From positions 124,001 through 188,000 of the forward strand of contig NZ_JAHTKI010000001.1 in assembly GCF_019145475.1 (NCBI RefSeq): a stretch of 64,000 nt of DNA, in the 5' to 3' direction. Positions within the stretch are counted from its first letter, which is position 1. The number at the start of each line of letters is the position of its first letter. The notes under the pieces are model-generated. The model was given only the letters and a program-made list of their open reading frames with translations. It was not told where the DNA came from and did no database searches. Positions 42,563 to 62,341 of this stretch are shown piece by piece. The stretch comes from Pseudomonas botevensis (GTDB lineage: Bacteria > Pseudomonadota > Gammaproteobacteria > Pseudomonadales > Pseudomonadaceae). The translations under genes and the position numbers were made by a program.

Positions 42563-42729
42563 GCTCTTGCTCCTGACTGAAGGATGCGGATCGATAACAG
42601 TAGTTCGGAGTAAAAATTATGAGCGTAATATGAGCGTTTCCAGCGATTTCGGTCAAGGCTTCAGGCAAGCGACAGGTTGCATGGCGTTCAGGTTGGGAAA
42701 ATGAGTACAAATATTTCACAGCTTTCGTT

Positions 42730-42744
42730 ATATCGTAACGATAT
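42730..42744. promoter_or_regulatory. Perfect 15-base dyad upstream of the SPFH/P-type ATPase operon
   Basis: ATATCGT-A-ACGATAT lies 33 bases before the start of the first SPFH gene. A -35-like TTCACA (42715-42720) lies just before it, so the dyad would overlap the -10 region. It looks like an operator for a dimeric repressor, but no regulator gene is adjacent and the family cannot be named. Confidence 0.5.
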
Positions 42745-42776: not shown

Positions 42777-44738
42777 ATGCAAGTCGATCTGGAGGTTGAT
42801 GGCACGCAAGTGACCGGATTGCCGCGCTTTCAGCAAGCGGCGGCGCAGGGGCGGCGCTTGCGCCGGTTGGCGATTGGCCTTGGCGGGCTGGCGGCAGTCG
42901 GTTGGGTGCTGGCGTTCTTCGTTGGCCTGTTTGCGGCCCAATCCTTGTGGCCGGCGTTGCTGGTCAACCAGAGCGCGGCGTTGCTGGTACTCGCGGCCGG
43001 GCTGCAATCGGCGGGGTGGGTGACGCGCTGGCGGGAGCGGGTGATCCATCCGCCGTTGACGGTCGCTGCCGCGCCGGACGATCAGCCTGCCCCGGACGGT
43101 TGGTACGAACGCCTGCTCGATCGCTTGAGCCAGCGCAGCCTGCATCTGCTTGCGCAGATCGGCGCCGCTACATTGTGGCTGGGTGGTTGGGCGCTGTTGG
43201 TGTTGCTCGGCATCGAGCAGACGTGGAACCTCACCTTGCCGTCGGCGGCTACCGGTTTGTCCGCCACCGTCGGTGCGGCCGTGGCGCTGCTGCTGGCGTT
43301 CGGTTTGCTGGTGCTGGAGCGGCAACTGGCCCAGGAAAACCCGGCGCAATGGCCCGAAGCCGGCGCATTGGCACAACTGACGCGGGTGACGATCATCACG
43401 CTGGTGCTGGGCGCATTGTGTCTGTTGTTTGCCAGTGAAAATGCGGTCTGGCCTGTGCGCCTGGCGGTGCTGATCGGTCTTTTGCCGGGGCTGGTCGCTG
43501 TCGAGTTGCTGCTGCGTGCCTTGCTGTCGCTGTTCAGCCCGCGCCGCGAACAGCTCGAACCGACGTTGCTGGCCCGCAGTTTTGTCGCCGACCTGCTGCG
43601 CTGGCCGCCCCAGCCGCTGCTTGCGTTGCAGCACGAATTACACAACCGTTTCGGCATCGATCTGCGCCAGATCTGGGCCTTCAGTTACATGCGCCGCGCG
43701 TTCTGGCCGGTGCTGGCGCTGGTTGCGGCGGTGGGCTGGTTGCTCACCGGCATCCATGAAATACCCCTACAAAGCCGTGGCATCTACGAGCGTTTCGGCA
43801 AACCGGTGCAGGTGTTCGGTCCGGGTCTGCATGCCGGTCTGCCCTGGCCGCTGGGGCGGGTGCTGAGCGTCGAAAACGGTGTGGTGCACGAGCTGGCGAC
43901 CAGCATTGGAGAAAATCCCGCGCCGCCGCAGCCGGACCCGGCGGAAGGCCCGGCGCCGCTGACCGCCAACCGCTTGTGGGACGCCAGTCACGTCAACGAT
44001 AAATCCCAGGTCATCGCCAGCCGCCGTGGCGATCAGCAGGGCTTGCAGATCGTCAACATGGACGTGCGCTTTGTCTACCGCATCGGCCTCAGCGATCAAG
44101 CGGCGCTCGCCGCCACTTACAACAGCGCCGATGTGCCGACGCTGATTCGCAGCACCGCCAGCCGCATTCTCGTACACGACTTCGCCTCGCGGACCCTCGA
44201 CGGTTTGCTCGGCGAAGACAGGGAAGGGCTGGCCGAAGAAATCGGTCGCGCGGTGCAAGGCGATCTGCAAAAGCTCGACAGCGGCGTGGAAATCCTTGCC
44301 ACCGTGGTCGAAGCGATTCATCCGCCGGCCGGCGCGGCGAATGCCTATCACAGCGTTCAAGCGGCGCAGATCGGCGCGCAGGCATTGATTTCCCGCGAGC
44401 GCGGTGCCGCCGCCGAAGCGAATAATCAGGCACAACTTCAGGCGAGCCTTGTTCAGGATCAGGCCAGCGCCAGTGCCCATGAAATCAACGCCACGGCGCG
44501 CGCGGCGGATCTGAGGTTCAGCGCCGAACAAAAAGCCTATGCCAGCGCCGGCCAGGCGTTCGTGTTGGAGCAATACCTCAGTCAACTCAGCCAGGGTTTG
44601 AGCAAGGCCAGATTGCTGGTGCTCGACCATCGCCTGGGCGGCAGCAGCAATGCGCCGACCATCGACCTGCGTACGTTCACGCTGCCGGCGGACCCCGTGC
44701 CGGCGCGCGCCACCGCTCAACCAGGAGCCACCCATTGA
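42777..44738 (+). CDS. Polytopic membrane protein with C-terminal SPFH domain (HflK-like), SPFH-1
   Basis: A 653-residue protein, far longer than classic HflK (about 400). The first 325 residues hold about seven hydrophobic segments (about 31-52, 58-80, 124-147, 157-180, 204-220, 225-252, 307-325). The SPFH/band-7 domain follows from IHEIPLQSRGIYERFGKPVQ (326-345), then GPGLHAGLPWPLG and the helical region rich in Ala and Gln (about 515-610). HflK/HflC normally wrap the FtsH protease; the extra polytopic half is not part of that family and its role is unknown. It overlaps the next gene by four bases (TTGA). It is commonly annotated HflK-like, but the cognate hflK-hflC pair of pseudomonads lies elsewhere, with hfq-hflX. 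Confidence 0.82.
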   Translation: MQVDLEVDGTQVTGLPRFQQAAAQGRRLRRLAIGLGGLAAVGWVLAFFVGLFAAQSLWPALLVNQSAALLVLAAGLQSAGWVTRWRERVIHPPLTVAAAPDDQPAPDGWYERLLDRLSQRSLHLLAQIGAATLWLGGWALLVLLGIEQTWNLTLPSAATGLSATVGAAVALLLAFGLLVLERQLAQENPAQWPEAGALAQLTRVTIITLVLGALCLLFASENAVWPVRLAVLIGLLPGLVAVELLLRALLSLFSPRREQLEPTLLARSFVADLLRWPPQPLLALQHELHNRFGIDLRQIWAFSYMRRAFWPVLALVAAVGWLLTGIHEIPLQSRGIYERFGKPVQVFGPGLHAGLPWPLGRVLSVENGVVHELATSIGENPAPPQPDPAEGPAPLTANRLWDASHVNDKSQVIASRRGDQQGLQIVNMDVRFVYRIGLSDQAALAATYNSADVPTLIRSTASRILVHDFASRTLDGLLGEDREGLAEEIGRAVQGDLQKLDSGVEILATVVEAIHPPAGAANAYHSVQAAQIGAQALISRERGAAAEANNQAQLQASLVQDQASASAHEINATARAADLRFSAEQKAYASAGQAFVLEQYLSQLSQGLSKARLLVLDHRLGGSSNAPTIDLRTFTLPADPVPARATAQPGATH

Positions 44739-45784
44739 GCCAGTCGCACACTCACGATCACCATGACCACAGCGGCCACGATCATGCTCATGGCGGTGGA
44801 CACCACCATCACGGGCATCATCACCATCACCACCACGGTGCGCCGGAAGAGGCGGGGCCATTCCCCTGGCGGCGGATGGGCTGGGCCGTGTTGCTGGTGG
44901 CCTTTGCCGTCGCGGCGGCGAGCCTGGTGCAGGTGCGCTCCGGTGAGGCCACGGTCATCACCCGTTTCGGCAATCCGTCCCGGGTCTTGCTGGAGCCGGG
45001 TTTGAGCTGGCGCTGGCCGGCGCCGTTCGAAGCGGCGATTCCGGTGGATCTGCGTCTGCGCACGACCTCCAGCGGCTTGCAGGACGTCGGCACCCGCGAC
45101 GGTTTGCGCATCATCGTGCAGGCATACGTGGCGTGGCAGGTGCAGGGCGATCCGGACAACGTGCAGCGCTTCATGCGCGCGGTACAGAACCAGCCGGATG
45201 AAGCGGCGCGGCAGATTCGCACCTTTGTCGGTTCGGCGCTGGAAACCACGGCCGCCAGTTTTGATCTGGCGAACCTGGTGAACACCGATGCCAGTCAGGT
45301 TCACATCGCCGATTTCGAAGCGCAGTTGCGCCAGCAGATCGATCAGCAGTTGCTCGCCACTTATGGCGTGCGTGTGGTGCAGGTCGGTATCGAACGCTTG
45401 ACCCTGCCTTCGGTGACGCTGACGGCGACGGTCGATCGTATGCGCGCCGAGCGTGAAACCATTGCCACTGAACGTACCGCCATCGGCAAGCGTGAGGCGG
45501 CGCAGATCCGTTCCGCCGCCGAACGCGATGCGCGAATCGTGCAGGCCGATGCCACGGTGAAAGCGGCGGAAATCGAGGCGCAATCGCGAGTCGAAGCGGC
45601 GCAGATTTATGGTCGCGCTTACGCGGGTTCGCCGCAGCTGTATAACCTGCTGCGCTCGCTGGACACCCTCGGCACCATCGTTTCGCCGGACACCAAACTG
45701 ATTCTGCGCACCGACGCCGCACCGTTCCGCGTGCTGGTGGACGGTCCGCCGAATCTTGACGGTAAAAGTGGAACACAGCCATGA
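44735..45784 (+). CDS. SPFH-domain membrane protein with His-rich N-terminus, SPFH-2
   Basis: A 349-residue single-pass SPFH protein. Nineteen of the first 34 residues are His, mixed with Asp and Gly (HDHHDHSGHDHAHGGG, then a run of seven His at 28-34), facing the cytoplasm before the membrane helix at about 48-67. The SPFH domain runs from about 68 (SGEATVITRFGNPSRVLLEP) to about 290, followed by a helical region. The start is a TTG sharing TTGA with SPFH-1. Such His/Asp tails bind Zn, Ni or Co in metal transporters and chaperones, so metal buffering or sensing for the P-type ATPase two genes downstream is suggested (inference). Codons alternate CAC and CAT, so it is not a simple slippage product. 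Confidence 0.85.
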   Translation: MSQSHTHDHHDHSGHDHAHGGGHHHHGHHHHHHHGAPEEAGPFPWRRMGWAVLLVAFAVAAASLVQVRSGEATVITRFGNPSRVLLEPGLSWRWPAPFEAAIPVDLRLRTTSSGLQDVGTRDGLRIIVQAYVAWQVQGDPDNVQRFMRAVQNQPDEAARQIRTFVGSALETTAASFDLANLVNTDASQVHIADFEAQLRQQIDQQLLATYGVRVVQVGIERLTLPSVTLTATVDRMRAERETIATERTAIGKREAAQIRSAAERDARIVQADATVKAAEIEAQSRVEAAQIYGRAYAGSPQLYNLLRSLDTLGTIVSPDTKLILRTDAAPFRVLVDGPPNLDGKSGTQP

Positions 45785-46842
45785 GCGAAGAAGTTCCACG
45801 TGGAACACAAACGTTGAACAGTGCGTGGATTCAGGCTGGACGCCTGGCGTTTTTCGCACTCTACGGTGTGACAGTACTGGCAGCGTTGGCCTGGGCGTTT
45901 TCCAACGTTAGGCAGATTGATCCGCAGAATCGCGCGGTGGTTTTGCACTTTGGAGCGTTGGAGCGCATTCAAAATGCCGGCCTGTTGCTGGCGTGGCCGC
46001 AGCCGTTCGAACAGGTGGTGTTACTGCCGGCGGCGGATCGGGTGATCGAGCGGCGGGTGGAAAACCTGCTGCGCAGCGGTGCTGCCGTGCAGGCCGATCG
46101 CGTCGCGACATTCGCCACGCCGTTGAGCGATGCACTGGCCGGCTCCGGCTATCTGCTCACCGGTGACGCCGGGGTTGTGCAACTGGATGTGCGGGTGTTC
46201 TACAAGGTCATCGATCCGTATGACTTCGTGCTGCAAGGCGATCACGTTTTGCCGGCACTGGATCGACTGGTGACCCGCAGCGCGGTGGCCCTGACCGCCG
46301 CGCGGGATCTGGACACGATCCTGGTAGCACGCCCGGAATTGATCGGCTCGGACAACCAGGCTGCCGAGCGCCGGGAGCGGCTGCGTGGTGATCTGGTTCA
46401 GGGTATCAATCAGCGACTGGCCGAATTGAAGGCGAGCGGGCAGGGCATCGGCATCGAAGTGGCGCGGGTCGATGTGCAATCGAGTTTGCCGGAGCCGGCC
46501 ATCAGCGCGTTCAACGCAGTGCTGACCGCCAGTCAGCAAGCCGACAAGACGGTCGCCAACGCCCGCACCGACGCGGAAAAACTCACTCAGTCCGCCAACG
46601 AACAGGCTGACCGTACCGTGCAAGTCGCCCATGCCCAGGCCGGTGAGCGACTGGCGAAAGCGTCTGCCGATACCGCAACCGTTCTGGGCCTGGCCAAGGC
46701 CCAGAAACAAGGCACTGACCCGCAAATGTTGTTGCGCCTGTATCGCGAGCGGATGCCGAAGATTCTCGGCCAGGCCGGTTCCGTGACCACGGTCGACCCG
46801 AAAGACGATTCCCGCCTGATCATTCAGGGAGCCAGTAAATGA
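45781..46842 (+). CDS. SPFH-domain membrane protein (HflC-like), SPFH-3
   Basis: A 353-residue single-pass SPFH protein with a membrane helix at about 20-41 and the band-7 domain from VRQIDPQNRAVVLHFGALER (about 43-62). A long Ala/Gln/Glu/Lys helix (about 245-310) matches the assembly region of HflC-type proteins. It shares ATGA with both neighbours. A parS-like palindrome is embedded in codons 4-9. Together with the two preceding genes it could form a heteromeric SPFH cage or ring in the inner membrane. Confidence 0.83.
   Translation: MSEEVPRGTQTLNSAWIQAGRLAFFALYGVTVLAALAWAFSNVRQIDPQNRAVVLHFGALERIQNAGLLLAWPQPFEQVVLLPAADRVIERRVENLLRSGAAVQADRVATFATPLSDALAGSGYLLTGDAGVVQLDVRVFYKVIDPYDFVLQGDHVLPALDRLVTRSAVALTAARDLDTILVARPELIGSDNQAAERRERLRGDLVQGINQRLAELKASGQGIGIEVARVDVQSSLPEPAISAFNAVLTASQQADKTVANARTDAEKLTQSANEQADRTVQVAHAQAGERLAKASADTATVLGLAKAQKQGTDPQMLLRLYRERMPKILGQAGSVTTVDPKDDSRLIIQGASK
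45792..45807. promoter_or_regulatory. parS-like ParB-binding site in the SPFH-3 gene
   Basis: AGTTCCACGTGGAACA contains the perfect 14-bp palindrome GTTCCACGTGGAAC and matches the bacterial parS 16-mer TGTTCCACGTGGAACA at 15 positions. ParB is encoded at 5017-5889. It lies about 44 kb from the mnmG-proximal origin region, farther than the core cluster of parS sites usually is. Confidence 0.8.
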
Positions 46843-48746
46843 CTGCGACTACCGCCGCTCCGAGCCTGTTGTCCTCGGCCGAACAACGCCGCGCCGCGCG
46901 CCAATTGACCCTGGCGATGCTTGCCCTCGGTCTGCTCGGTCTGGGTCTGATCTGGCGCTGGTTGCTGCCGGAGCAGACCGGTGTCAGCCAGTTACTGCTC
47001 GGTTTCGCGTCCTTGCTGGTCGCGGTTCCGGTGATGCGTTCGGCGTGGTTCAGCCTGCGTTACCCGAGCCTGCACGGGATCACCGACCAGTTGATCGCCC
47101 TGGCGATGCTCGGTGCCTGGGCCACCGGCGATCTGCTCACGGCGGCGCTGTTGCCGATCATCATGATCTTCGGCCATGTGCTGGAAGAGCGCAGCGTGAT
47201 CGGTTCCCAGGAAGCGATTCATGCGCTTGGCCAACTGACCCGCAGCCATGCGCGCAAGGTTCAGGCGGACGGCACGATCATCGAGGTCGATAACGGCACG
47301 CTCAAGGCGGGCGATACGGTGGAGGTTCGCGCGGGCGACCGGATACCGGCAGACGGTCGGGTGTTGGCCGGCCAGGCCAGTCTGGATACTGCGTCGATCA
47401 CCGGTGAGTCGGTGCCGGTGGAGGCGGGTGTCGGCATGCCGGTGTTCGGTGGGGCGATCAACCTCGACGGCCTGCTGCGCATCGAGGTAACGCGAACCGG
47501 CGACCAGTCGACCCTCGGCAAAGTCATCGCGCTGATGCAAAACGCTGAGCGCTCGAAACCGCCGATCACCCGTTTGCTCGAGCGCTATGCCGGCAGCTAC
47601 ATGGTGCTGGTGTTGCTGCTGGCGGCGGTGACCTGGTTCATCACCAACGACGCGCAGGCGATGCTCGCCGTTCTGGTGGCGGCGTGTCCTTGCGCATTGG
47701 TGTTGTCGGCGCCGGCCACGGCGATTGCCGGGGTCGCGGTGGCGGCGCGCCACGGGATCCTGATCCGCAGTTCGGCGTTCCTTGAAGAGTTGGCGGACCT
47801 CACCTCGCTGGTGGTGGACAAGACCGGCACCCTGACTTACGGCACATTGCGTTTGCAGTCGATCGACAGCCCGCAGGTGGATCACACCTCGGTGATGGCA
47901 TTGGCCGCCAGCCTGGGGGCGGCGAGCAGCCACCCGGTCAGTCGCGCCTTGGCGGGGCTGGTCGGCTCGGAAGATGTCCTGGCCTTGACCGACATTCATG
48001 AACGCCAGGGCCTCGGCGTAGTGGCAATGACCGCTGACGGCGAAGCGGCGCTCGGGCGTCCGGAGTTGTTTGCCCAACTCGGGATCAGCACCTCGGCCGT
48101 TCCCGACCACGATGGCCCGATTGCCGGGCTGGCGCTGAACGGTAAATTTCTCGCCTGGTTGTTGTTGGCCGACAGCGTCAAACCCGAAGCGCGTTTTGCG
48201 TTGGGGGAGTTGCGCGAATTGGGCCTGGGGCGCCAGTTGCTGTTGACCGGCGACCGCCAGAGCGTCGCGCAGACGCTGGCGCGGGATGTCGGTCTGCACG
48301 AAGTCGAAGCCCAGGCGCTGCCTGAAGACAAGCTCAATCGCGTGCTCAAGGAGATCGACAACGGTTTCCGGCCGATGGTGGTGGGCGACGGCATCAACGA
48401 TTCCCTGGCGCTCAAGGCCGGGGTGGTCGGGGTCGCGATGGGGGCGGGCGGCGCGGACATTGCCCTGGCGTCCGCCGACATCGTGCTGATCGGCAGCGAC
48501 CTGCGTCGGCTCGGCACCTGCGTACGCCTCAGTCGTCAATGTCGGCGCACCTTGCAGGTGAACGTGATCATCGGCCTGGGCTGGACGCTGGCGATCGTGG
48601 TATTCGCCGCGTTCGGCTGGCTCGGTGCCGCCGGAGCAATGATTGCGGCCCTGCTGCATAACCTCAGCACGCTGCTGGTGCTGGGCAACGCCGGGCGGTT
48701 GCTGCGCTTTCAGGAGCCGCTGCTCAAGCTGAAAGAGCCGGATTGA
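46839..48746 (+). CDS. Heavy-metal-type (P1B-like) P-type ATPase without N-terminal metal-binding domain
   Basis: A 635-residue cation pump. It has TGES (188-191, actuator), the transmembrane CPC motif (Cys283-Pro-Cys285), the phosphorylation motif DKTGTLT (Asp327), the P1B hallmark His-Pro (365-366) and GDGIND (516-521). No HMA domain or CXXC motif precedes the first membrane helix, and total length is about 100 below ZntA/CadA. In the last helix ZntA-type pumps have an Asp; here the sequence is LLHNLSTLLVLGNAGRLL (His607, Asn608, Ser610, Thr611), neither the Zn/Cd nor the Cu signature, so the ion is uncertain. It is the last gene of the SPFH operon and shares ATGA with SPFH-3. The His-rich tail of SPFH-2 may supply the missing metal-binding function (inference). 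Confidence 0.88.
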   Translation: MTATTAAPSLLSSAEQRRAARQLTLAMLALGLLGLGLIWRWLLPEQTGVSQLLLGFASLLVAVPVMRSAWFSLRYPSLHGITDQLIALAMLGAWATGDLLTAALLPIIMIFGHVLEERSVIGSQEAIHALGQLTRSHARKVQADGTIIEVDNGTLKAGDTVEVRAGDRIPADGRVLAGQASLDTASITGESVPVEAGVGMPVFGGAINLDGLLRIEVTRTGDQSTLGKVIALMQNAERSKPPITRLLERYAGSYMVLVLLLAAVTWFITNDAQAMLAVLVAACPCALVLSAPATAIAGVAVAARHGILIRSSAFLEELADLTSLVVDKTGTLTYGTLRLQSIDSPQVDHTSVMALAASLGAASSHPVSRALAGLVGSEDVLALTDIHERQGLGVVAMTADGEAALGRPELFAQLGISTSAVPDHDGPIAGLALNGKFLAWLLLADSVKPEARFALGELRELGLGRQLLLTGDRQSVAQTLARDVGLHEVEAQALPEDKLNRVLKEIDNGFRPMVVGDGINDSLALKAGVVGVAMGAGGADIALASADIVLIGSDLRRLGTCVRLSRQCRRTLQVNVIIGLGWTLAIVVFAAFGWLGAAGAMIAALLHNLSTLLVLGNAGRLLRFQEPLLKLKEPD

Positions 48747-53630: not shown

Positions 53631-54191
53631 TCAGAACTCGTTCTGCAGGGCCTTGTAGCCGCGCACCAGATCGACGTTGGTGCGCGCCACGTCCTCGGAA
53701 AACTCCGAAGCGCTGACGCTCACCGGTGGGAATTGCGAGAGATCGGTGTTCGGGCCGATCCGGGTGGTGGAGGGCACGTAGAACGCGTCCGGCAGATCCC
53801 GACCGTCGACCACCGAGTTGTGGCGCACCACGCAACCATCGCCTACCGCGCAGTTGAACAGCACGCTGTTGAAGCCGATGAACACCCGATTACCGACGGT
53901 GCATGGGCCGTGCACGATCGAGCGGTGGGCGATGGAGCTGAACTCGCCGATGGTCACCGCCGCGCCGGACTTGGAGTGAATCACCACGCCGTCCTGGATG
54001 TTCGAATTGGCGCCGATGATGATGGGCTCCATCGTGCCCGAAGCGTCCACTTCGTCGGCACGGATCACCGCGTAGGGACCGACGAACACGTTCTCGCCGA
54101 TCACCACTTTGCCGCAGATGATCGCGGTTTTATCGACGTAGGCAGACTCGGCAATTTGCGGCAGATCGCCGGAAGGATTCTTGCGGATCAT
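53631..54191 (-). CDS. Gamma-class carbonic anhydrase-like protein
   Basis: A 186-residue left-handed beta-helix protein. Three candidate metal ligands are His72, His89 and His94 (VIHSKSG and SIAHRSIVHGP), the spacing of CamH/YrdA-type gamma carbonic anhydrases. These trimers interconvert CO2 and bicarbonate and can use metals other than zinc. In P. aeruginosa the orthologue is PA5540, in the zinc-starvation cluster. It shares ATGA with the upstream binding-protein gene. Catalytic activity is probable but not certain, because many family members are inactive. Confidence 0.87.
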   Translation of the reverse strand: MIRKNPSGDLPQIAESAYVDKTAIICGKVVIGENVFVGPYAVIRADEVDASGTMEPIIIGANSNIQDGVVIHSKSGAAVTIGEFSSIAHRSIVHGPCTVGNRVFIGFNSVLFNCAVGDGCVVRHNSVVDGRDLPDAFYVPSTTRIGPNTDLSQFPPVSVSASEFSEDVARTNVDLVRGYKALQNEF

Positions 54192-55063
54192 GGTTGGCTC
54201 AGCGCGTTGTAGAGGGTGTTGAGGTTGTATTCGAACAGTCCGGTGAAGGTGCTGGCCGGGCCGCTGGCGGCGAGGGCGTCGGAGTACAGTGTGCCGCCGA
54301 TCTTCGCGCCGCTTTCGCCGGCGATCTGCTTGAGCAGGCGCGCGTCCTTGATGTTTTCCATGAACACCGCTTTGACCTTGGCCTGGCGGATCTGCGTGAT
54401 CAGTGCGGCGACTTCGCTGGCGGACGGCTCGCGTTCGGTCGACAGCCCTTGTGGCGCCATGAAGTCGATCCCATAGGCCTGGCCGAGATAGCCAAAGGCA
54501 TCGTGGCTGGTGACGATCTTGCGATTGCCGGCGGGCAGGGAACCGAGCTTGGCCTTGGCTTCGGCGAGCAGGGCGTAGATCTGTTTCAGATAGGCTTTGC
54601 TGTTGCGCTCATAGTCGGCCTGGTTGGCCGGGTCGGCGGCGATCAGTGCCTTGGTGATGTTGGCGATGTACAGCTCAGTGTTCGCCAGGTTGTGCCACGC
54701 GTGCGGATCAGGAACGGTTTCGCCGTCCTCGTCCAGCGCGCGAGGAATCACTCCGTGGCTGGCGCTGATCACCGTGGCTTTGGTGTCGGTGCTGGTCACC
54801 AGCCGATCCAGCCACGGCTCGAAGCCCAGGCCGTTTTTGACGATCAGCTTCGCCTTGAGCAGGGCCTTGGCGTCATCCGGTGTTGGCTCGTAGGTGTGGG
54901 CATCGGCGTCGGGACCGACCATGTTGGTGATCTGGATATGCTCGCCGCCGACCTGATGCACCATGTCGGCAAGAATGCTGAAGCTGGTGACCACCGGCAG
55001 TTTTTCCGCCGCCGACAATGACATCGACAGCAACAGGCTGAACAGCACGAGTAGAGCGCGCAT
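54188..55063 (-). CDS. Metal (probably zinc) ABC transporter substrate-binding protein
   Basis: A 291-residue periplasmic protein of the ZnuA/TroA (cluster A-I) family, starting with signal peptide MRALLVLFSLLLSMSLSA. Predicted ligands are His56 (DAHTYEP), His121 (DPHAWHN), His187 (TSHDAFGY) and Asp262 (LYSDAL). A His third ligand fits zinc better than the Glu of manganese proteins. The long His-rich loop of E. coli ZnuA is absent; a short acidic DEDGE stands there (111-115). ATG at 55063 is the signal-peptide start; the frame is open far upstream but overlaps the permease. Downstream of permease and ATPase in the folE2 operon. Confidence 0.88.
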   Translation of the reverse strand: MRALLVLFSLLLSMSLSAAEKLPVVTSFSILADMVHQVGGEHIQITNMVGPDADAHTYEPTPDDAKALLKAKLIVKNGLGFEPWLDRLVTSTDTKATVISASHGVIPRALDEDGETVPDPHAWHNLANTELYIANITKALIAADPANQADYERNSKAYLKQIYALLAEAKAKLGSLPAGNRKIVTSHDAFGYLGQAYGIDFMAPQGLSTEREPSASEVAALITQIRQAKVKAVFMENIKDARLLKQIAGESGAKIGGTLYSDALAASGPASTFTGLFEYNLNTLYNALSQP

Positions 55064-55074
55064 CGGGAAACACC

Positions 55075-55941
55075 TCATTGGGATGTGAGCAAGGGTGGGC
55101 GGCGCAGCAAGCCGTGCACCGGCCCGAACACCACGGACAGCAGATAGCCGATGCCGGCGACCAGCACGATCGCCGGGCCGCTGGGCAACGAGTAGTAGAA
55201 CGACAGCAACAGACCGAGCCATACCGACAGACAGCCGATCAGCCCGGCGATGGCGATCAGGACCGGCAAGCGCCGGCTCCAGAAGCGTGAGGCGATGGCG
55301 GGCAGCATCATCAGTCCGACCACCATCAGCGCGCCGATGGCCTGGAAGCCGATCACCAGATTGAGCACCACCAGGGTCAGGAACACGCCGTGGGCGATCG
55401 GGCCGAGGCGGCTGACGGTACGCAGGAAAAGGGGATCGAGGGTGTCGAGCAGCAGCGGTTTGTAGATCAGTGCCATGGCACTCAGGCTGATGGCTGAGAC
55501 CCACAACATGCCGTTCAGGGTTGGACCGTCGACGGCCAGCGCCGAGCCGAACAGCAGGTGCAACAGGTCCAGGCGCTTGCCGGCGATACCCAGAATCAGC
55601 ACGCCGCTCGCCAAGGAGATCGGATAGATCGCCGCCAGGCTGGCGTCTTCACGCAAGCCGGTGCTGCGGGTGATCCACGCGGCGAGTCCGGCCATACCGA
55701 GACCCGCGCCGAGGCCGCCGAAGGTCAGCGCCGGCAGGCTCAGACCGGCGAACCAGAAACCCAATGCGGCGCCGGGCAGAATGCCGTGGGCGACCGCATC
55801 GCCGATCAGGCTCATGCGCCTGAGGATCAGAAACACCCCGAGTGGTGCCGTGCTGCAAGCCAGCAGCAGGCCTCCCAGTAATGCCCGTCGCATGAACACG
55901 AATTCGTGAAACGGTTGCCAGAAATGCATGAGGGTGAGCAT
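55075..55941 (-). CDS. Metal (probably zinc) ABC transporter permease
   Basis: A 288-residue ABC-3-type (ZnuB/TroC) permease with about eight membrane helices. The family blocks are LGVFLILRRMSLIGDAVAHG (34-53) and VLNLVIGFQAIGALMVVGLM (about 186-205). It starts within the stop of the ATPase gene (TGATG) and is 11 bases from the binding-protein gene. Forms the membrane channel for the ATPase and binding protein next to it. Confidence 0.92.
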   Translation of the reverse strand: MLTLMHFWQPFHEFVFMRRALLGGLLLACSTAPLGVFLILRRMSLIGDAVAHGILPGAALGFWFAGLSLPALTFGGLGAGLGMAGLAAWITRSTGLREDASLAAIYPISLASGVLILGIAGKRLDLLHLLFGSALAVDGPTLNGMLWVSAISLSAMALIYKPLLLDTLDPLFLRTVSRLGPIAHGVFLTLVVLNLVIGFQAIGALMVVGLMMLPAIASRFWSRRLPVLIAIAGLIGCLSVWLGLLLSFYYSLPSGPAIVLVAGIGYLLSVVFGPVHGLLRRPPLLTSQ

Positions 55942-56609
55942 CAGGCCACCCGCGCGTCAGGTGTGGGTTGGAGCAGTTCGGTGCTGGCGCCAAACATGCA
56001 GTCGCCACTTTTGAACAACAGGGTTTGCGGGATGTGCTGGCGGACGGCGGGCAGGTCATGACACACGACGAGCAGAGTCCGGCCTTGTGAGTGCCACGCC
56101 TGAAGGTGTTGCCAGAGCAGCGACTGACCGAGCTCATCGAGCGCTGCGTCCGGCTCGTCGAGCAGCAGGACGGGCGCGTCGGCGAGGCTCAATCGGGCGA
56201 GCAGGGCACGTTGCAGTTCCCCGCCAGAGAGGGCCATCAGCGGACGCTTCTCCAGTCCGCTCAGGTGCCAGTCTTCCAGCGCGGCAGCCAAACGTTGAGT
56301 ACGCAACCGCGTCGACAGTCGACGTCCCCAGAATCCTGCGGCGACCAGTTCTTGCAGATTGATCGGGAATTGTCGATCCAGATGCTGTTGTTGCGGCAGG
56401 AACGACAGGCCACTTTGACGGGGCACACTAAGACTGGCTTTGCCGGACAGCGGCTTCTGCAACCCGGCGATGACTTTCAGCAGGCTGCTTTTGCCACAGC
56501 CGTTCGGGCCGACGATGGCCGTCAGGCTTCCGCTGTCCAGACGCAGATTCAAGGGCGGGGTGAGGGGCTGGCCGGGTGCTCCCCAACTCAAGGCTTGGCA
56601 CCGGATCAT
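55941..56609 (-). CDS. Metal (probably zinc) ABC transporter ATP-binding protein
   Basis: A 222-residue ABC ATPase. Walker A is GPNGCGKSS (about 33-41), the signature LSGGELQRALLARL (about 125-138) and Walker B VLLLDEPDAALDEL (about 144-157). ATG at 56609 shares ATGA with the folE2 stop; a longer frame inside folE2 was not used. With the permease and binding protein it is a complete importer in a Zur-box operon, in addition to the usual znuABC expected elsewhere. Confidence 0.92.
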   Translation of the reverse strand: MIRCQALSWGAPGQPLTPPLNLRLDSGSLTAIVGPNGCGKSSLLKVIAGLQKPLSGKASLSVPRQSGLSFLPQQQHLDRQFPINLQELVAAGFWGRRLSTRLRTQRLAAALEDWHLSGLEKRPLMALSGGELQRALLARLSLADAPVLLLDEPDAALDELGQSLLWQHLQAWHSQGRTLLVVCHDLPAVRQHIPQTLLFKSGDCMFGASTELLQPTPDARVA

Positions 56610-57502
56610 GGTAATTCCCGAGTCCAGGTGCTTTCCGCCACGGCATCGTGAGCGTGGAGGCTTTCGGCGTGGATGACTCGCAGGTGGAATTGGCAGATAC
56701 CTGGCGTGCGACGCAGCGCCAGGTTCAGTCGACGGGCTGCGTCTTCGCAAAACATCAGGTTCTGTCCGTTGGCCAGAGCGAAGGCTTGTTCATCGGCGCG
56801 TTTTACAGCGGTTTGCACAGCCGTGCCGAGGGCGGCTTCGGCGTCGTTGATGATCGCATTGAGAGGCAACGCATCGACGAACTCATCCAGATGAACGTGC
56901 AGTTGTGCAGTGCTGCGTTGGCTGTGGGGAGTTGCGACGATGCCTTGAGTCGAGCCGAGCCAGTTCAGAACGTCGGCATGCTGCAGTGGCTTATTGGCGA
57001 AATCATCGATGAATTGCTGCTGAATCAACTGCCGAGCCAGAGCCGCCGAGCAAGGGCAGGTTGAGGAATATTCCACATCGATTTTCAGTTCCACGTGGAA
57101 CACTTTGTTTTTCAGGCTGGCCGCAATCGTGACCGGATAGGTTTTCCAGCCGCTGAGCGGGCTGATGAGTGCCGGCTGTTTCAGCAACAGATCGGTATGG
57201 ATATTCAGGTAGGCGCTGGTGGACAAGCCTTCATGGCTCCGCAGGAATTCCTGCAAAACCTGATACAGAAGAGTCGGTGAAAGGTTCTGCCGCTCCAGCA
57301 TTTCCAGAGCCAGATACAGCCGAGACATATGAATGCCTCGGGCCTCTCCATCATCAAGACTGACGCCCGCATCGGCCTTGGCAACCAGGCGTTGACCCTC
57401 GATTGAAACGGGCAGAGCAATGCCACGCATACCCACCCATTCGAGTGGCAGGGATTGGCGGGTGGCTTGCGCGGCGATATCCGGCAGCGTCAGCGCATTC
57501 AT
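56606..57502 (-). CDS. folE2: GTP cyclohydrolase FolE2 (type IB)
   Basis: FolE2 makes dihydroneopterin triphosphate, first step of folate synthesis, and unlike zinc-dependent FolE works with other divalent metals, which is why it is induced under zinc limitation. The 298-residue protein has the family blocks VGMRGIALPVSI (near 20), VEYSSTCPCSAALARQLIQQ (with the active-site Cys) and the C-terminal FCEDAARRLNLAL. ATG at 57502 gives MNALTLPDIAAQATR, the family start; 57514 is possible. First gene of the six-gene leftward operon, behind a Zur-box-like palindrome at 57533-57547. A parS-like site lies inside at 57088-57101. Confidence 0.94.
   Translation of the reverse strand: MNALTLPDIAAQATRQSLPLEWVGMRGIALPVSIEGQRLVAKADAGVSLDDGEARGIHMSRLYLALEMLERQNLSPTLLYQVLQEFLRSHEGLSTSAYLNIHTDLLLKQPALISPLSGWKTYPVTIAASLKNKVFHVELKIDVEYSSTCPCSAALARQLIQQQFIDDFANKPLQHADVLNWLGSTQGIVATPHSQRSTAQLHVHLDEFVDALPLNAIINDAEAALGTAVQTAVKRADEQAFALANGQNLMFCEDAARRLNLALRRTPGICQFHLRVIHAESLHAHDAVAESTWTRELP
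57088..57101. promoter_or_regulatory. parS-like ParB-binding site in folE2
   Basis: GTTCCACGTGGAAC, the perfect 14-bp core of parS, flanked by CA and AC. On the coding strand it encodes FHVE, different from the two other sites, so the DNA palindrome rather than the protein is the common element. Confidence 0.82.
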
Positions 57503-57532
57503 GATGAGATCCATTGTGGTGATTGAATTTGA

Positions 57533-57547
57533 TGTTACATTATAACA
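57533..57547. promoter_or_regulatory. Zur-box-like palindrome between folE2 and the amidase gene
   Basis: TGTTACATTATAACA is a near-perfect dyad matching the gammaproteobacterial Zur pattern TGTTATAnTATAACA with one change. Flanks TTTGA and TTCAAA extend the symmetry. It lies 31 bases from folE2 and 40 from the amidase and can control both divergent genes. Confidence 0.85.
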
Positions 57548-57586
57548 ATTCAAACCACGATGCCTTTTTCATGAACAGGCTTTCAT

Positions 57587-58789
57587 ATGCATAGGCGCCA
57601 CCTGCTTAACCTGATTCTGGCGAGCGCTACGTTGGCTCTGCCGTTTACTGTTTCGGCTACGCAAATTCGTAATGCACGGCTCTGGCGTTCGGAGAACAAG
57701 CTACGGTTGGTGTTCGATCTGAGCGGGCCAGTGCGCTACAAGACCTTCTCCTTGGGTTCACCAGAGCGCTTGATCGTCGATCTGAGTGGTGCGACCTTGA
57801 GCGGAGATTTCAGCCAGTTGGCGCTGGAAAATTCGGTCATTCGCTCGATCCGCTCGGGGCATTTTGGGCAGGGTGATACGCGCATCGTCCTCGATTTGAG
57901 TGAGCCAGTGCAGTTGAACAGTTTCTTGCTCGCCCCCCAGGATGGGCAAGGTCACCGGTTGGTGCTGGACTTGATCAGTGCTGCACCGGCCAAAATCGCG
58001 CCCATGGTTCCACGTGAAACACCCACGCAAAAGACTCATGCCAAACGCGACATCATCGTTGTGGTCGATCCTGGACACGGCGGCAAAGACCCCGGTGCGG
58101 TGGGCGCCAAAGGTGAGCGGGAAAAAGATGTGGTGCTTTCCATCGCCCAATTGCTCGCGCGACGGCTGAAACGCGAGAAGGGGTTCGGCGTAAAATTGGT
58201 ACGCAACGACGATTTCTTCGTCCCGTTGCGCAAGCGCGTGGACATTGCCAGGCAGCATAAGGCCGACATGTTTATCTCTGTACACGCCGACGCAGCGCCA
58301 CGCCTGACTGCCTCCGGTGCTTCGGTGTATTGCTTGTCCGAGGGTGGGGCCACATCGGCCACCGCGCGCTTCATGGCGCAACGGGAGAATGGTGCGGACT
58401 TACTGGGTGCTACCAGCCTTCTCAATCTCAAGGACAAGGACCCGATGCTGGCCGGGGTGATTCTCGACATGTCGATGAACGCGACCATCGCTGCCAGTCT
58501 GGAACTGGGTGGCACGGTTCTGGGCAGTTTGGCGGGCATTACCACACTGCATCAAAAACGTGTGGAACAGGCTGGATTTGCCGTGCTGAAGTCGCCGGAC
58601 GTGCCATCGATCCTGGTGGAAACCGGCTTCATTTCCAACGCACGGGACAGCCAGCGACTGGTCACGGCGCGTCATCAGCAGGCTGTGGCGGACGGATTGT
58701 TCGCGGGATTACAGCGCTATTTCGAGAAAAACCCACCGGCCGACAGCTACATCGCCTGGCAGCAAGCGCAGAAAAATGGACAGGTTTAG
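57587..58789 (+). CDS. N-acetylmuramoyl-L-alanine amidase (AmiA/AmiC type)
   Basis: A 400-residue cell-wall amidase that cuts the bond between N-acetylmuramic acid and L-alanine. The signal has twin arginines (MHRRHLLNLILASATLAL), so Tat export is possible, as for E. coli AmiA and AmiC. An AMIN domain (about 27-130) is followed by an Amidase_3 domain (about 155-385) with VVDPGHGGKDPGAVG (catalytic metal His), the Glu of GEREKD and ISVHADAAPR, and LVETGFISN near the end. In P. aeruginosa an amidase (PA5538) is in the zinc-starvation cluster. It diverges from folE2 across the Zur box. A parS-like site is inside at 58006-58021. Confidence 0.93.
   Translation: MHRRHLLNLILASATLALPFTVSATQIRNARLWRSENKLRLVFDLSGPVRYKTFSLGSPERLIVDLSGATLSGDFSQLALENSVIRSIRSGHFGQGDTRIVLDLSEPVQLNSFLLAPQDGQGHRLVLDLISAAPAKIAPMVPRETPTQKTHAKRDIIVVVDPGHGGKDPGAVGAKGEREKDVVLSIAQLLARRLKREKGFGVKLVRNDDFFVPLRKRVDIARQHKADMFISVHADAAPRLTASGASVYCLSEGGATSATARFMAQRENGADLLGATSLLNLKDKDPMLAGVILDMSMNATIAASLELGGTVLGSLAGITTLHQKRVEQAGFAVLKSPDVPSILVETGFISNARDSQRLVTARHQQAVADGLFAGLQRYFEKNPPADSYIAWQQAQKNGQV
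58006..58021. promoter_or_regulatory. parS-like ParB-binding site in the amidase gene
   Basis: GGTTCCACGTGAAACA matches the B. subtilis parS sequence TGTTCCACGTGAAACA at 15 of 16 bases. It is 0.9 kb from the folE2 site. It encodes VPRET, whereas the SPFH-3 site encodes VPRGT. Confidence 0.75.
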
Positions 58790-59160
58790 CAGCCGGTAAT
58801 GCGGCTGCAAGTGAACTTCGCGCTGCTCCCGCCGGAGCTGGAAAACCGGTTGATCGTCGTCCAGCCCACCCGGCGGTTGTAACCCACCCACGCTTCGCCA
58901 TCTGAAGCGATGCCGGTAAAGAACGTCAGTTGCCCGTAGCGACTGTTGGTCTGCGCCCAGTATCGCCGACCGACCTTTTCGAAACCACGCAGATACATCG
59001 TACTGCCCACCGTGTTGACGCTGTAGGCATTGCCTTCGGCGTCAATGCACGCCAACAGGTTGGCGGTGCGGGTGCAGGTGGCAAGCCCTGGAATCTGGCC
59101 CCAGGCATTGAAGGTCAACAGCGCGAGGCTCAGGAGCGAGCATTTCAGCGCAATTCTCAT
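58786..59160 (-). CDS. Small exported protein, divergent from the ZigA-type gene, unknown function
   Basis: A 124-residue protein I do not recognise. ATG at 59160 starts a signal peptide (MRIALKCSLLSLALLTFNAW, cleavage near GQI, about 22). The mature part has four cysteines, two as CTRTANLLAC (about 29-38) and two at the C-terminal end as CSRITGC, compatible with two disulfides, and many aromatic and glycine residues. Between it and the COG0523 gene lies a Zur-box-like palindrome, 80 bases upstream of this start, so it may be zinc-regulated. Its stop overlaps that of the convergent amidase gene. Confidence 0.72.
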   Translation of the reverse strand: MRIALKCSLLSLALLTFNAWGQIPGLATCTRTANLLACIDAEGNAYSVNTVGSTMYLRGFEKVGRRYWAQTNSRYGQLTFFTGIASDGEAWVGYNRRVGWTTINRFSSSGGSSAKFTCSRITGC

Positions 59161-59240
59161 GGTGTGTTCCGACAGGTGAAAGAGGTCCAGCTTCATGCCC
59201 TGTATGTATTTGGGCAAGAGCAAAGGTGGATTGTTCATAT

Positions 59241-59255
59241 TGTTATACTATAACA
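59241..59255. promoter_or_regulatory. Zur-box-like palindrome upstream of the ZigA-type gene
   Basis: TGTTATACTATAACA is a perfect dyad around a central base and matches the Zur pattern TGTTATAnTATAACA exactly. It lies between the small exported protein (80 bases away) and the COG0523 GTPase (108 bases away). Confidence 0.88.
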
Positions 59256-59363
59256 TTAAATCCAACCTGCTTTCCGTGACCCTGTTTTCAGGCGCCTGCT
59301 TCCTTGATTGGAGCCAAAGAGCGCCTTTTCGCTGCCCAGCGGCTGATTTATGAGGATTATCCA

Positions 59364-60569
59364 ATGTCTTACCCGCTTCCCGTGACCGTTTTGTCCGGCT
59401 TCCTCGGCGCTGGAAAAAGTACACTTTTGAATTACGTACTACGTAACAGGGACGCGCTGCGCGTTGCTGTAATCGTCAATGATATGAGTGAGATCAATAT
59501 CGATGGCAGCGAAGTCCAGCGTGATGTCAGCTTGAACCGTGCAGAAGAGAAACTGGTCGAGATGAGCAACGGCTGCATCTGCTGTACGTTACGCGAGGAC
59601 CTGCTGGAGGAAGTGAGCAAGCTCGCCCGCGATGGCCGTTTCGATTATCTGTTGATCGAGTCCACCGGTATTTCCGAGCCGTTGCCGGTCGCCGAGACCT
59701 TTACCTTCCGTGACGAGCAGGGGCAGAGCCTGGCCGACGTCGCGCGCCTCGACACGATGGTCACCGTGGTCGACGGCATGAACTTCCTTCAGGACTACTC
59801 AGCTGCCCAGAGCCTTGCCTCTCGCGGTGAAACCCTGGGCGAGGAAGACGAGCGCTCGATCACCGATTTGCTGATCGAGCAGATAGAGTTCGCCGACGTG
59901 CTGTTGATCAGCAAGATCGATCTGATCAGCCAGCGCGACCGCGAAGAACTGACGGCGATCCTTAAACGCCTGAATGCCCAGGCCGAGATCATCCCGATGG
60001 TGATGGGTGAAGTACCGTTGGAGAAGATCCTGAATACCGGTCGCTTCGACTTCGAAAAAGCCGCGCAGGCCCCTGGATGGTTGCAGGAATTGCGCGGCGA
60101 ACATGTCCCGGAAACCGAGGAATACGGCATCGCCTCCGGTGCCTACCGAGCGCGGCGGCCGTTCCATCCGGAGCGCTTCTTCAATTTCATCGACCGGCCA
60201 TGGCCGAACGGCAGGTTGCTGCGTTCAAAGGGCTTTTTCTGGCTTGCGAGCAAGCCGTCGGATGCTGGCAGCTGGTCGCAGGCGGGCGGTTTGATGCGTT
60301 ACGGATTTGCCGGGCGCTGGTGGCGCTATGTGCCGAAAGATCACTGGCCGCAGGATCAGGAAAGTACCGCAGCGATCATGCAAAACTGGACTTCCAGCGT
60401 CGGGGACTGCCGTCAGGAGCTGGTTTTCATCGGGCAGAACATCGATTTCGAGCAGCTCACCTCGGAGCTGGATGCCTGCTTGCTGACCGATGAAGAAATG
60501 GCCATCGGCACCGAAGGCTGGCGCTCGCTGGTCGACCCTTTTGGTCCGTGGAGCGAAGAGGCGGCCTGA
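59364..60569 (+). CDS. zigA: Zinc-associated COG0523 GTPase (ZigA-type)
   Basis: A 401-residue G3E-family GTPase thought to deliver zinc to client enzymes in zinc-limited cells. The P-loop GFLGAGKST is at 12-20, the metal site GCICC (Cys71, Cys73, Cys74) at 70-74, followed by ESTGISEP and the guanine-specific SKID. The C-terminal CobW domain (about 270-395) completes it. ATG at 59364 is chosen because [20 protein letters not shown] is the family start and GAGGA lies 8 bases before; a frame from 59304 would cover the leader. In P. aeruginosa the orthologue (PA5535) is Zur-repressed. Confidence 0.92.
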
Positions 60570-60572
60570 GGT

Positions 60573-60929
60573 TCAGGGCTTGAGCCACTTGCCCTGGCTC
60601 TGAGTCTCGCAGTACGGCTGCAAGTAAGCGGCGTCGGTGGCGATGCCGTAATAGTGGATATCCTGGCGATAGGGCATATTGGCGACCTGGGCGTTGCTGC
60701 ATACGCCGAACGCGCCGCCGGGGCACTGGTCGACGTATTGCACGTCGACTTTCTGCCCGGCCAGGGTCGGTTGGCAGAAACCGTCGTTGAACAGCTTTTC
60801 CGGGATGTTGCGGTTCTGCTGGCAGACCTTGACGTCCAGTCGCTCGGCCTGGCTATGAACCACACAGGCTTGCGCCAGCACCTGCCCCGACAGCAACATC
60901 AACAGCAACCAACCTCCCAACCACCGCAT
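60573..60929 (-). CDS. Small exported cysteine-containing protein, unknown function
   Basis: A 118-residue protein with signal peptide MRWLGGWLLLMLLSGQVLAQ (cleavage near residue 20). ATG at 60929 is 6 bases after GGAGG; a GTG at 60953 is less likely. The mature part has six cysteines (CVVHS, VCQQN, FCQPT, QCPGG, VCSNA, YCETQ), an even number suggesting disulfides, and the segment PYRQDIHYYGIATDAAYLQP. Not recognised by name. It is convergent with zigA and divergent from the second COG0523 gene. No Zur box was seen here. Confidence 0.7.
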   Translation of the reverse strand: MRWLGGWLLLMLLSGQVLAQACVVHSQAERLDVKVCQQNRNIPEKLFNDGFCQPTLAGQKVDVQYVDQCPGGAFGVCSNAQVANMPYRQDIHYYGIATDAAYLQPYCETQSQGKWLKP

Positions 60930-60955
60930 CAACGACCTCCAGAAAAACGCCACGC

Positions 60956-61921: not shown

Positions 61922-61927
61922 GTCAGC

Positions 61928-62341
61928 TCACGGCTTCCACTTGGTGTGTTCCTGGCGCCACTGGCTCAGCTCGATCACCTCGGCCCGTGGTTTGTTCACC
62001 TCGACCACCGGCGGTGTGTCATCGAACGGGGCCGGGTAGGGCGCCAGTTCGATCTGGGCGCTGTGCGCGCCGAATTGGGTAATGGTGCCGTTGTGACGGG
62101 TTTCGCCGGTCACGGTGAATTCGAAATTGTAGACCCGCGCCAATCGCCGGCGACCGCTGGCGTCCTTGATGAAGCCAATCTTTTTCAGTGCGACGTTGCC
62201 GTCGAGCAGCTCCACGCCGACGTTCACGCAATGTTGCTTGACCCGTTCCAGCGCCCGCTCGCGCAAGCCGTGGTTGTGCCATAGCCAGGCGCCAGCAGCG
62301 GCGAACAGCATCAGCACGAAGATGTTTTCGAGGGTCAGCAT
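61928..62341 (-). CDS. DUF3301-type small membrane-anchored protein
   Basis: A 137-residue protein: one N-terminal membrane helix (about 5-22, [20 protein letters not shown]) followed by the pattern [20 protein letters not shown] and [13 protein letters not shown] typical of the DUF3301 family, then a beta-rich part with [23 protein letters not shown] at 62341 was chosen over two TTG codons just before. Function unknown. Convergent with the GTPase gene. Confidence 0.82.

Follow-up and report, generated by a model that had tools for sequence, protein, structure and literature searches.

A putative zinc-starvation operon of Pseudomonas botevensis joins three SPFH proteins to an HmtA-type metal ATPase

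Introduction

In Pseudomonas aeruginosa, the gene cluster PA2439-PA2435 encodes the pump HmtA together with a trio of SPFH proteins that were named PaFlo5-7 in 2026 (PMC13086221; PA14 and PAO1 locus tags matched through PMC9431628). Here we describe the matching operon of Pseudomonas botevensis, three SPFH genes followed by a gene for a P1B-type metal ATPase, and weigh what the four proteins might do together. The operon lies at positions 42777-48746 of a 64,000-nucleotide stretch of DNA (RefSeq assembly GCF_019145475.1, contig NZ_JAHTKI010000001.1, positions 124,001 to 188,000 of the forward strand), which we call the window; its genes are referred to as SPFH-1, SPFH-2, SPFH-3 and the ATPase, or pump.

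The P. aeruginosa cluster has been connected with zinc shortage in several published data sets. Deletion of znuA raised the expression of PA2434, PA2435 and PA2437-PA2439 by 5.6- to 14.4-fold (PMC4542158), the PA2439 promoter was shifted by Zur with zinc in electrophoretic mobility shift assays (PMC8531726), proteins of the cluster became more abundant when zinc was depleted, the p-values being mixed (PMC11761036), and N-acetylcysteine, a zinc chelator according to the authors, mildly induced PA2437-PA2439 (PMC9431628). For the pump itself, reviews report that overexpression of HmtA raised cell zinc and copper (PMC10393844, PMC8456098). The study that named PaFlo5-7 described nine SPFH genes without a common conserved context and found the trio's organisation common to a small set of species from different classes; it judged PaFlo5-7 non-essential, and the words ATPase and HmtA are absent from its main text (PMC13086221). 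The P. aeruginosa literature cited here deals with HmtA and with the SPFH proteins separately.

In the PacL1-CtpC zinc efflux platforms of mycobacteria, too, a protein from the pump's own operon, with a tail that binds metal, keeps a P1B pump in a membrane assembly. The scaffold there is PacL, however, the foci are flotillin-independent, and the platforms act against zinc excess rather than starvation (PMC9374683).

Results

The four genes lie on the plus strand as open reading frames that each overlap the next by 4 bases. The initial annotation of this DNA, made from the sequence, had proposed a unit made together from three SPFH proteins and a metal-type P-type ATPase; the coordinates of the reading frames bear out the overlaps, and the order SPFH-1, SPFH-2, SPFH-3, ATPase on a single strand recurred in 116 of 116 loci examined (115 unique), as expected of one co-made unit. 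This set comprised the window and loci L015-L129, one of them a duplicate, from alpha-, beta- and gammaproteobacteria; its sources were the window, five of ten plasmid records described below, the best 80 of 400 confirmed relatives, and 30 of 84 other ATPase-positive genomes. The 4-base overlaps were retained in 93, 107 and 111 of the 115 operons by a start-codon rule. SPFH-3 is broken into two frames in two loci (L049 and L050), by decay or sequencing error, and a contig end cuts the pump short in two others (L102 and L129). Six further loci have the same gene order. SPFH-2 of locus L143 (8964-9978, oriented) is interrupted by one in-frame stop, again by decay or sequencing error, and is intact in the close relative L144.

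SPFH-2 and the ATPase were found together wherever either was found in the genus. Among 369 evenly drawn Gammaproteobacteria, the P. botevensis genome included, SPFH-2 was present at E<=1e-45 in two, namely P. botevensis itself at full score and genome G249, which carries one of the CDF-SPFH loci described below; the ATPase was present at E<=1e-110 in five, P. botevensis and four others scoring 372-423 bits, L131 highest. Both proteins were too rare in this sample, and linkage was therefore tested in the genus. In 139 congeneric genomes the ATPase (E<=1e-140) was found in 85 and SPFH-2 (E<=1e-45) in the identical 85, and the two shared a contig in 85 of 85 with 983-1125 bases between the matches. 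An ATPase often standing without the SPFH genes, which the initial annotation had named as the contrary outcome, did not occur at these thresholds. Presence of SPFH-1 and SPFH-3 was checked in the fetched loci alone (116 of 116).

Outside the genus the operon is patchily distributed. SPFH-2 was found at E<=1e-45 in 7 of 79 genomes of the family and 11 of 398 of the phylum. A scan of 72,556 plasmid records found the ATPase (E limit 1e-80) and SPFH-1 (1e-5) in one and the same set of ten, from Rhizobium (seven), Klebsiella, Paraburkholderia and Burkholderia (one each), and SPFH-2 (1e-20) occurred in those ten and in one distant record, an Aquibium plasmid. Because presence is patchy and extends to plasmids of distant classes, these data fit horizontal spread of the operon, which PMC13086221 also proposed.

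The control region and the genes downstream, neither of them remarked on initially, point to zinc starvation. A Zur-type box, GTTATATCGTAAC, precedes SPFH-1 and has one mismatch to the consensus GTTATANNATAAC. Boxes with at most two mismatches stood at 109 of 115 SPFH-1 starts, compared with 47 of the 5413 windows taken from these loci as controls. The six loci without a box at this limit are four Rhizobium/Burkholderia-type plasmids, in whose hosts Zur motifs may differ, and L077 and L103, both from the genus of the window; among the six further loci, no box was found in L141 or L142 either. A looser pattern, GTTATANNRTAAC (R for A, a change made after the window's own box had been seen), marked six sites in the whole genome of 6.45 Mb, giving seven matches over both strands compared with three for the pattern read backwards, so that single boxes may be chance. 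Three of the six sites lie in the window, all inside 16.5 kb, at the operon, at the start of folE2 and at zigA. The remaining three precede a gene for a ZnuD-like receptor (best match ZnuD at 304.9 bits, the gene being cut by the locus end, against a cut-off of 950), a gene for a TonB siderophore-type receptor, and a gene without a clear zinc role.

The surroundings of the operon agree with this picture. A zinc-starvation island at 54188-62000, about 5-13 kb downstream, holds folE2, Znu-type ABC genes, an amiC-type amidase gene, zigA and a second CobW-type GTPase gene; the binding protein of its ABC system is AztC-like, under the AztC cut-off. Paraburkholderia sprentiae has a ZnuA-type ABC transporter operon and a GTP-binding gene upstream of its copy of the operon, their ends lying roughly 3.5 kb or more away. 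The four-gene unit thus looks like a zinc-starvation operon, and Zur probably controls it in this strain. As at the HmtA locus, three SPFH genes of HflK/HflC type precede a P1B ATPase gene in the window, and a Zur-type box is present. The Zur-type box at G000:C9:22368-22380 (locus L151), which may be chance, stands before a membrane acyltransferase-like gene (Pfam HGSNAT_cat) that has no clear part in zinc starvation.

Gene by gene, the operon can be laid over the P. aeruginosa cluster, in which a trio assigned to the HflK, HflC and HflC families is likewise followed by a P-type ATPase and the promoter is bound by Zur and induced by starvation. SPFH-1 corresponds to PA2439/PaFlo5 by position and family and SPFH-2 to PA2438/PaFlo6, and SPFH-3 corresponds by position to PA2437/PaFlo7, which was assigned to the HflC family there. 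The two differ in that PA2436 lies between the third SPFH gene and the pump of P. aeruginosa, whereas no gene occupies that place in the window. In a genome of another genus of the family (locus L140, 11184-11636), an additional open reading frame of 150 residues, with no Pfam match at E<=1, stands between SPFH-3 and the pump, where PA2436 would be.

The ATPase has the Pfam domains E1-E2_ATPase (1.4e-51) and Hydrolase, and a Pfam search found no HMA metal-binding domain in it, as the initial annotation had said. It passes the cut-offs of the NCBIfam heavy-metal and cadmium-type subfamily models, TIGR01525 (513.9 vs 346.25 bits) and TIGR01512 (486.7 vs 313.5 bits); the genome's CopA-like pump passes both as well, and TIGR01512 is non-discriminating. 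The nearest solved chains are a cadmium-translocating P-type ATPase (7qbz) and a zinc-transporting ATPase (4umv). DKTGT and GDGxND were present in 121 of 121 ATPase sequences, the window's included, as was a CPC motif in transmembrane helix (TM) 6, as in P1B-2 pumps (ZntA/CadA). In TM8, all 119 complete sequences carried HNx(S/G)T, the other two being those cut by contig ends.

This pairing of motifs sets the pump apart from the P1B classes with which it shares a core. Pumps of class P1B-2 have an aspartate in TM8, which the operon pumps, with HNx(S/G)T in 119 of 121, lack, and class P1B-4 (CoaT-like) has SPC in TM6 with HEGxT in TM8, which the operon pumps also lack. The window's pump instead combines CPC with HNxST in TM8 and has no HMA domain. 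In the same genome, the ZntA/CadA-like pump, which is nearest to the Zn/Cd/Hg/Pb ATPase model, carries CPC with ADMG and the CopA-like pump CPC with MALSS, both scoring under the equivalog cut-offs; pumps L132-L134 of other genomes carry SPC with HEGST. L131, which scored highest among pumps from outside, has CPC and a TM8 that differs from all of these. By its motifs, the operon pump looks like a distinct P1B branch.

The SPFH proteins resemble HflK and HflC without being ordinary members of either family. All three have a Band_7 domain (E-values of 1e-19, 3.1e-31 and 9e-18 and scores of 71.7, 109.2 and 65.4 bits for SPFH-1, SPFH-2 and SPFH-3, above the Pfam gathering score of 23.6), which in SPFH-1 spans residues 329-544. 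By NCBIfam, SPFH-1 and SPFH-3 are HflK-like and SPFH-2 is HflC-like, all under the equivalog cut-offs: SPFH-1 reaches 57.4 and SPFH-3 89.9 of 159.4 bits (HflK, TIGR01933), and SPFH-2 reaches 99.3 of 134.4 bits (HflC, TIGR01932). An ordinary hflK-hflC pair elsewhere in the genome passes these cut-offs (378.5 and 285.7 bits), and there is one more SPFH gene besides. The reading of the trio as an ordinary duplicate of HflKC was set aside on these scores, which lie under the cut-offs passed by the genome's own pair. Pfam assigns the four operon proteins to families other than PacL, no search directed at PacL having been made.

Compared with the HflK-HflC-FtsH supercomplex, the window thus shares SPFH proteins of HflK/HflC type, which would likewise face the periplasm and co-assemble; it differs in having three SPFH genes, none at the equivalog cut-off, and no FtsH in the operon, with a predicted CDF-like domain and a metal pump instead.

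Ahead of its SPFH domain, SPFH-1 has seven separable hydrophobic segments, in agreement with the extra membrane helices noticed initially; by prediction they include a CDF-like domain without a metal site, which is taken up below. Seven segments were counted in 104 of 115 operons, six in nine and eight in two. Because an odd number of helices follows a cytoplasmic N-terminus, the SPFH domain of SPFH-1 would be periplasmic, as for HflK, and by the same topology the His-rich tail of SPFH-2 would be cytoplasmic.

That tail is among the most constant features of the operon. Counting confirmed 19 histidines within the first 34 residues of SPFH-2 (20 overall), and tails delimited by a simple rule had at least 6 histidines in 114 of 115 operons, with a median of 16, so that the tail imagined initially as serving the pump is conserved and could do so; the six further loci carry it as well. 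The exception is a Klebsiella plasmid, in which the ATPase has 5 histidines in its first 30 residues. At least 4 histidines were found in the ATPase's own tail in 18 of 115 operons, and no operon (0 of 115) was without a His tail on both proteins. Since the tail can sit on either SPFH-2 or the pump, this suggests that the two proteins reach the same place, and we favour a shared complex.

The N-terminal domain of SPFH-1 quite probably has the fold of CDF transporters such as YiiP and the ZnT proteins, as judged from structure prediction. An AlphaFold model of residues 1-327, built from 68 sequences, had a mean predicted local distance difference test score (pLDDT) of 79.3, with about 85-95 across most membrane helices and 59-75 in the loop around residues 91-130. 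When it was compared with known structures by VIA-align, the top 22 PDB entries were all CDF transporters (Z 13.7 to 7.8), led by YiiP (Z 13.7, 195 residues, 3.9 A) and including ZnT1 and ZnT3 (both Z 12.2), and the first other fold appeared at Z 7.3. With the whole-protein model YiiP reached Z 14.2 and rows 1-20 were all CDF proteins, another fold standing at rank 21 with Z 8.5. The SPFH part of the whole-protein model was poor (mean pLDDT 58.2), and we therefore claim nothing from it on SPFH assembly.

Several results weigh against this fold assignment. Foldseek also ranked YiiP first, with E-values of only 0.035-0.075, and a best Z near 14 is common for mostly helical models that have no clear relative, so that a second line of evidence is needed beside the fold ranking. 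Sequence profiles did not supply it. Pfam Cation_efflux gave no match at E<=10 in the SPFH-1 N-terminal domains of the window, L015 and L018, and the relation was insignificant by hhalign, with E 0.017-0.07 and a probability of at most 2.2%. The individual values were E 0.92 against a profile of three CDF sequences, 0.053 against three CDF domains plus three fusions (the fusions alone 0.072, reversed control 0.66), and 0.021 (local) or 0.017 (global) against 28 CDF domains plus three fusions (reversed global control 0.38). A full-length comparison gave an alignment at E 2.2e-23 running from about TM4 through the SPFH domain, and the SPFH part may have carried the E-value. In a wider search of 398 Pseudomonadota genomes for CDF-SPFH fusions, with at most three candidates scored per genome, the matches listed covered only profile position 248 onward, which is the SPFH side.

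With sequence profiles failing, the case for a CDF domain rests on the predicted fold together with a parallel among gene fusions. In three other loci, Pfam finds Cation_efflux and Band_7 in one protein, with Cation_efflux E-values of 1.2e-18 (G249), 4.5e-25 (a plasmid of Aquibium oceanicum) and 1.2e-18 (G132). In G249 and Aquibium the fusion is followed by two further SPFH genes, HflC-like then HflK-like, as in the window; in G132, on a short contig, there is one further SPFH match. All three fusions retain the HxxxD pairs of TM2 and TM5, which CDF proteins use as metal-site residues, and [HD]xxxD in both helices was found in none of the 118 SPFH-1 domains that could be anchored (of 121; three could not be). 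By prediction, SPFH-1 would share with CDF transporters a six-helix membrane arrangement (residues 20-255); it differs from them in having no Pfam Cation_efflux match, no metal-site residues in 118 of 118 domains, and a fusion to an SPFH domain. If the fold assignment holds, the transport function of this domain has very likely been lost.

The loci with fusions have neighbours of their own. On the Aquibium plasmid (NZ_CP018172.1; locus L145, 5343-14774), the fusion and the HflC-like and HflK-like SPFH genes are followed by a PPIC-type isomerase gene, and the locus continues with a P-type ATPase with two HMA stretches and with PCu(A)C and SCO genes, which gives it the look of a copper-flavoured relative of the window's system. 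Loci L130 (6027-9722) and L147 (36-1844) hold CDF-SPFH fusions from two gammaproteobacterial genomes that belong to one order. The fusion of L130 is followed by two more SPFH genes, with no P-type ATPase adjoining, and L147 lies on a short contig.

Table 1. Positions of the operon's genes, their notable segments and the Zur-type boxes, in window coordinates
Feature	Position	Strand	Description
Zur-type operator GTTATATCGTAAC (palindrome)	42727..42739	+	ends 37 bases ahead of the SPFH-1 start codon
SPFH-1	42777..44738	+	653 residues; CDF-like six-helix membrane domain (predicted), linker, TM7, SPFH domain
CDF-like membrane domain of SPFH-1 (predicted)	42834..43541	+	residues about 20-255; metal-site residues absent
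SPFH-2	44735..45784	+	349 residues; HflC-like; TTG start; Band_7 3.1e-31
His-rich N-terminal tail of SPFH-2	44735..44836	+	19 His in 34 residues; probably cytoplasmic
SPFH-3	45781..46842	+	353 residues; HflK-like by NCBIfam; Band_7 9e-18
P1B-type metal ATPase	46839..48746	+	635 residues; HmtA type by position; no HMA domain
CPC motif of TM6, C283-P284-C285	47685..47693	+	CPC in 121/121 sequences
TM8 signature H607-N-L-S-T611	48657..48671	+	HNx(S/G)T in 119/121 sequences
Second Zur-type box	57534..57546	.	near folE2 start (Znu-type ABC genes next), before amiC-type amidase gene; outside the operon
Third Zur-type box, perfect	59242..59254	.	upstream of zigA (zinc chaperone GTPase gene); outside the operon

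Discussion

We favour the reading that the operon encodes a Zur-controlled metal pump caged by SPFH proteins, whose likeliest role is the acquisition of zinc (and copper) by the cytoplasm, and we put its probability at about one half. When zinc is plentiful, Zur would repress the operon; as zinc falls, Zur would leave the box and the four proteins would be made in step. The three HflK/HflC-type SPFH proteins may then co-assemble into a cage or dome like that of HflKC, with their SPFH domains in the periplasm, the pseudo-CDF domain of SPFH-1, no longer binding metal, serving as a dock or membrane scaffold. In or against this dome, the P1B ATPase would move zinc and probably copper too, and His tails of SPFH-2, or of the pump, could hold ions at the pump's cytoplasmic side in place of the missing HMA domain. 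The net role would most likely be import of zinc to the cytoplasm; import is our first choice because reviews report that cell zinc and copper rise when HmtA is overexpressed.

Several observations count against this. The pump carries ordinary P1B motifs, which would make import unusual. For P. aeruginosa, the znuA deletion study described the Zur site as weak (E 0.11; PMC4542158), one study found hmtA mRNA low and not repressed by zinc (PMC8531726), and a review names hmtA as the exception to Zur binding (PMC10393844). Deletion of PaFlo5-7 had only mild effects in the tests reported, namely less biofilm and weaker killing of Galleria (PMC13086221).

A broader proposal, which we make tentatively and as a whole, is that the HflK/HflC-type SPFH trio forms a general chassis, spread horizontally, in which metal transporters are housed and not proteases. 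Its parts would be that the first member's CDF domain keeps its metal site in G249, G132 and the Aquibium plasmid; that it is dead in the line of Pseudomonas, Rhizobium, Burkholderia and Klebsiella, where transport has passed to a P1B pump whose distinct site combines CPC and HNx(S/G)T; and that the SPFH dome encloses a private periplasmic chamber for the passage of metal or the metallation of proteins. With such a chamber, the direction of HmtA would have to be judged with the cage present.

The next reading keeps the same Zur-controlled machine and lets the pump export, either loading envelope zinc proteins through an SPFH-enclosed periplasmic space or removing wrong metals, such as cobalt, nickel, copper and cadmium, that enter through importers which are derepressed and less selective. 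Export into the dome deserves to be taken seriously as a rival because the motifs of the pump are those of ordinary P1B ATPases. His tails facing the cytoplasm would gather ions from it, and the CDF domains of the three related fusions keep HxxxD in TM2 and TM5; CDF proteins are mostly exporters. The Aquibium locus, moreover, adjoins a P-type ATPase with HMA domains and PCu(A)C and SCO genes, and P. aeruginosa has been reported to use pyochelin-cobalt under zinc shortage (PMC11481552). The reported rise of cell zinc and copper on overexpression of HmtA (PMC10393844) speaks against export, which we consider somewhat unlikely.

It is improbable, in our estimate, that the trio is a starvation version of HflKC which tunes FtsH, itself a zinc protease, with the ATPase merely a co-regulated neighbour. 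Its likeness to HflK and HflC would agree with this, and both PMC9431628 and PMC11761036 interpret the trio as modulators of FtsH. However, the trio scores under the HflK/HflC equivalog cut-offs, which the other pair in this genome exceeds, the operon holds no ftsH, SPFH-2 and the pump were inseparable in 85 of 85 genomes, and such a role would leave unexplained both a member with a predicted CDF-like domain and the His tail.

A scaffolded efflux unit against metal excess, the purpose first proposed for these genes, would fit a P1B ATPase with a His-rich tail and has a conceptual parallel in the mycobacterial PacL/CtpC platforms (PMC9374683), but it is very improbable and was set aside because the Zur-type box and the published induction of the Zur-bound P. 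aeruginosa cluster by zinc shortage have the wrong sign for it, and elsewhere the genome encodes further P1B pumps, whose best matches are ZntA/CadA-like and CopA-like.

Returning to the caged, Zur-controlled pump that we favour, the system is not wholly undescribed, as had been suggested initially: HmtA, the link to starvation, the binding of the promoter by Zur and the SPFH trio as PaFlo5-7 are already known from the P. aeruginosa work cited above. In the open-licence literature we found no description of the four genes as one obligate system, which is no proof of absence, nor of a CDF-SPFH fusion (live or dead), of a His tail that shifts between proteins, or of the signature of CPC with HNx(S/G)T.

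For P. aeruginosa, the finding offers a testable job for PaFlo5-7, whose role was left open in 2026 (PMC13086221), namely one in zinc starvation together with HmtA. It also suggests how the question of import by HmtA could be settled, as the pump may need partners. If the cage does enclose the pump, SPFH assemblies would serve as transport compartments in addition to housing FtsH, and a transporter domain that is now dead would have been reused as a structural part.

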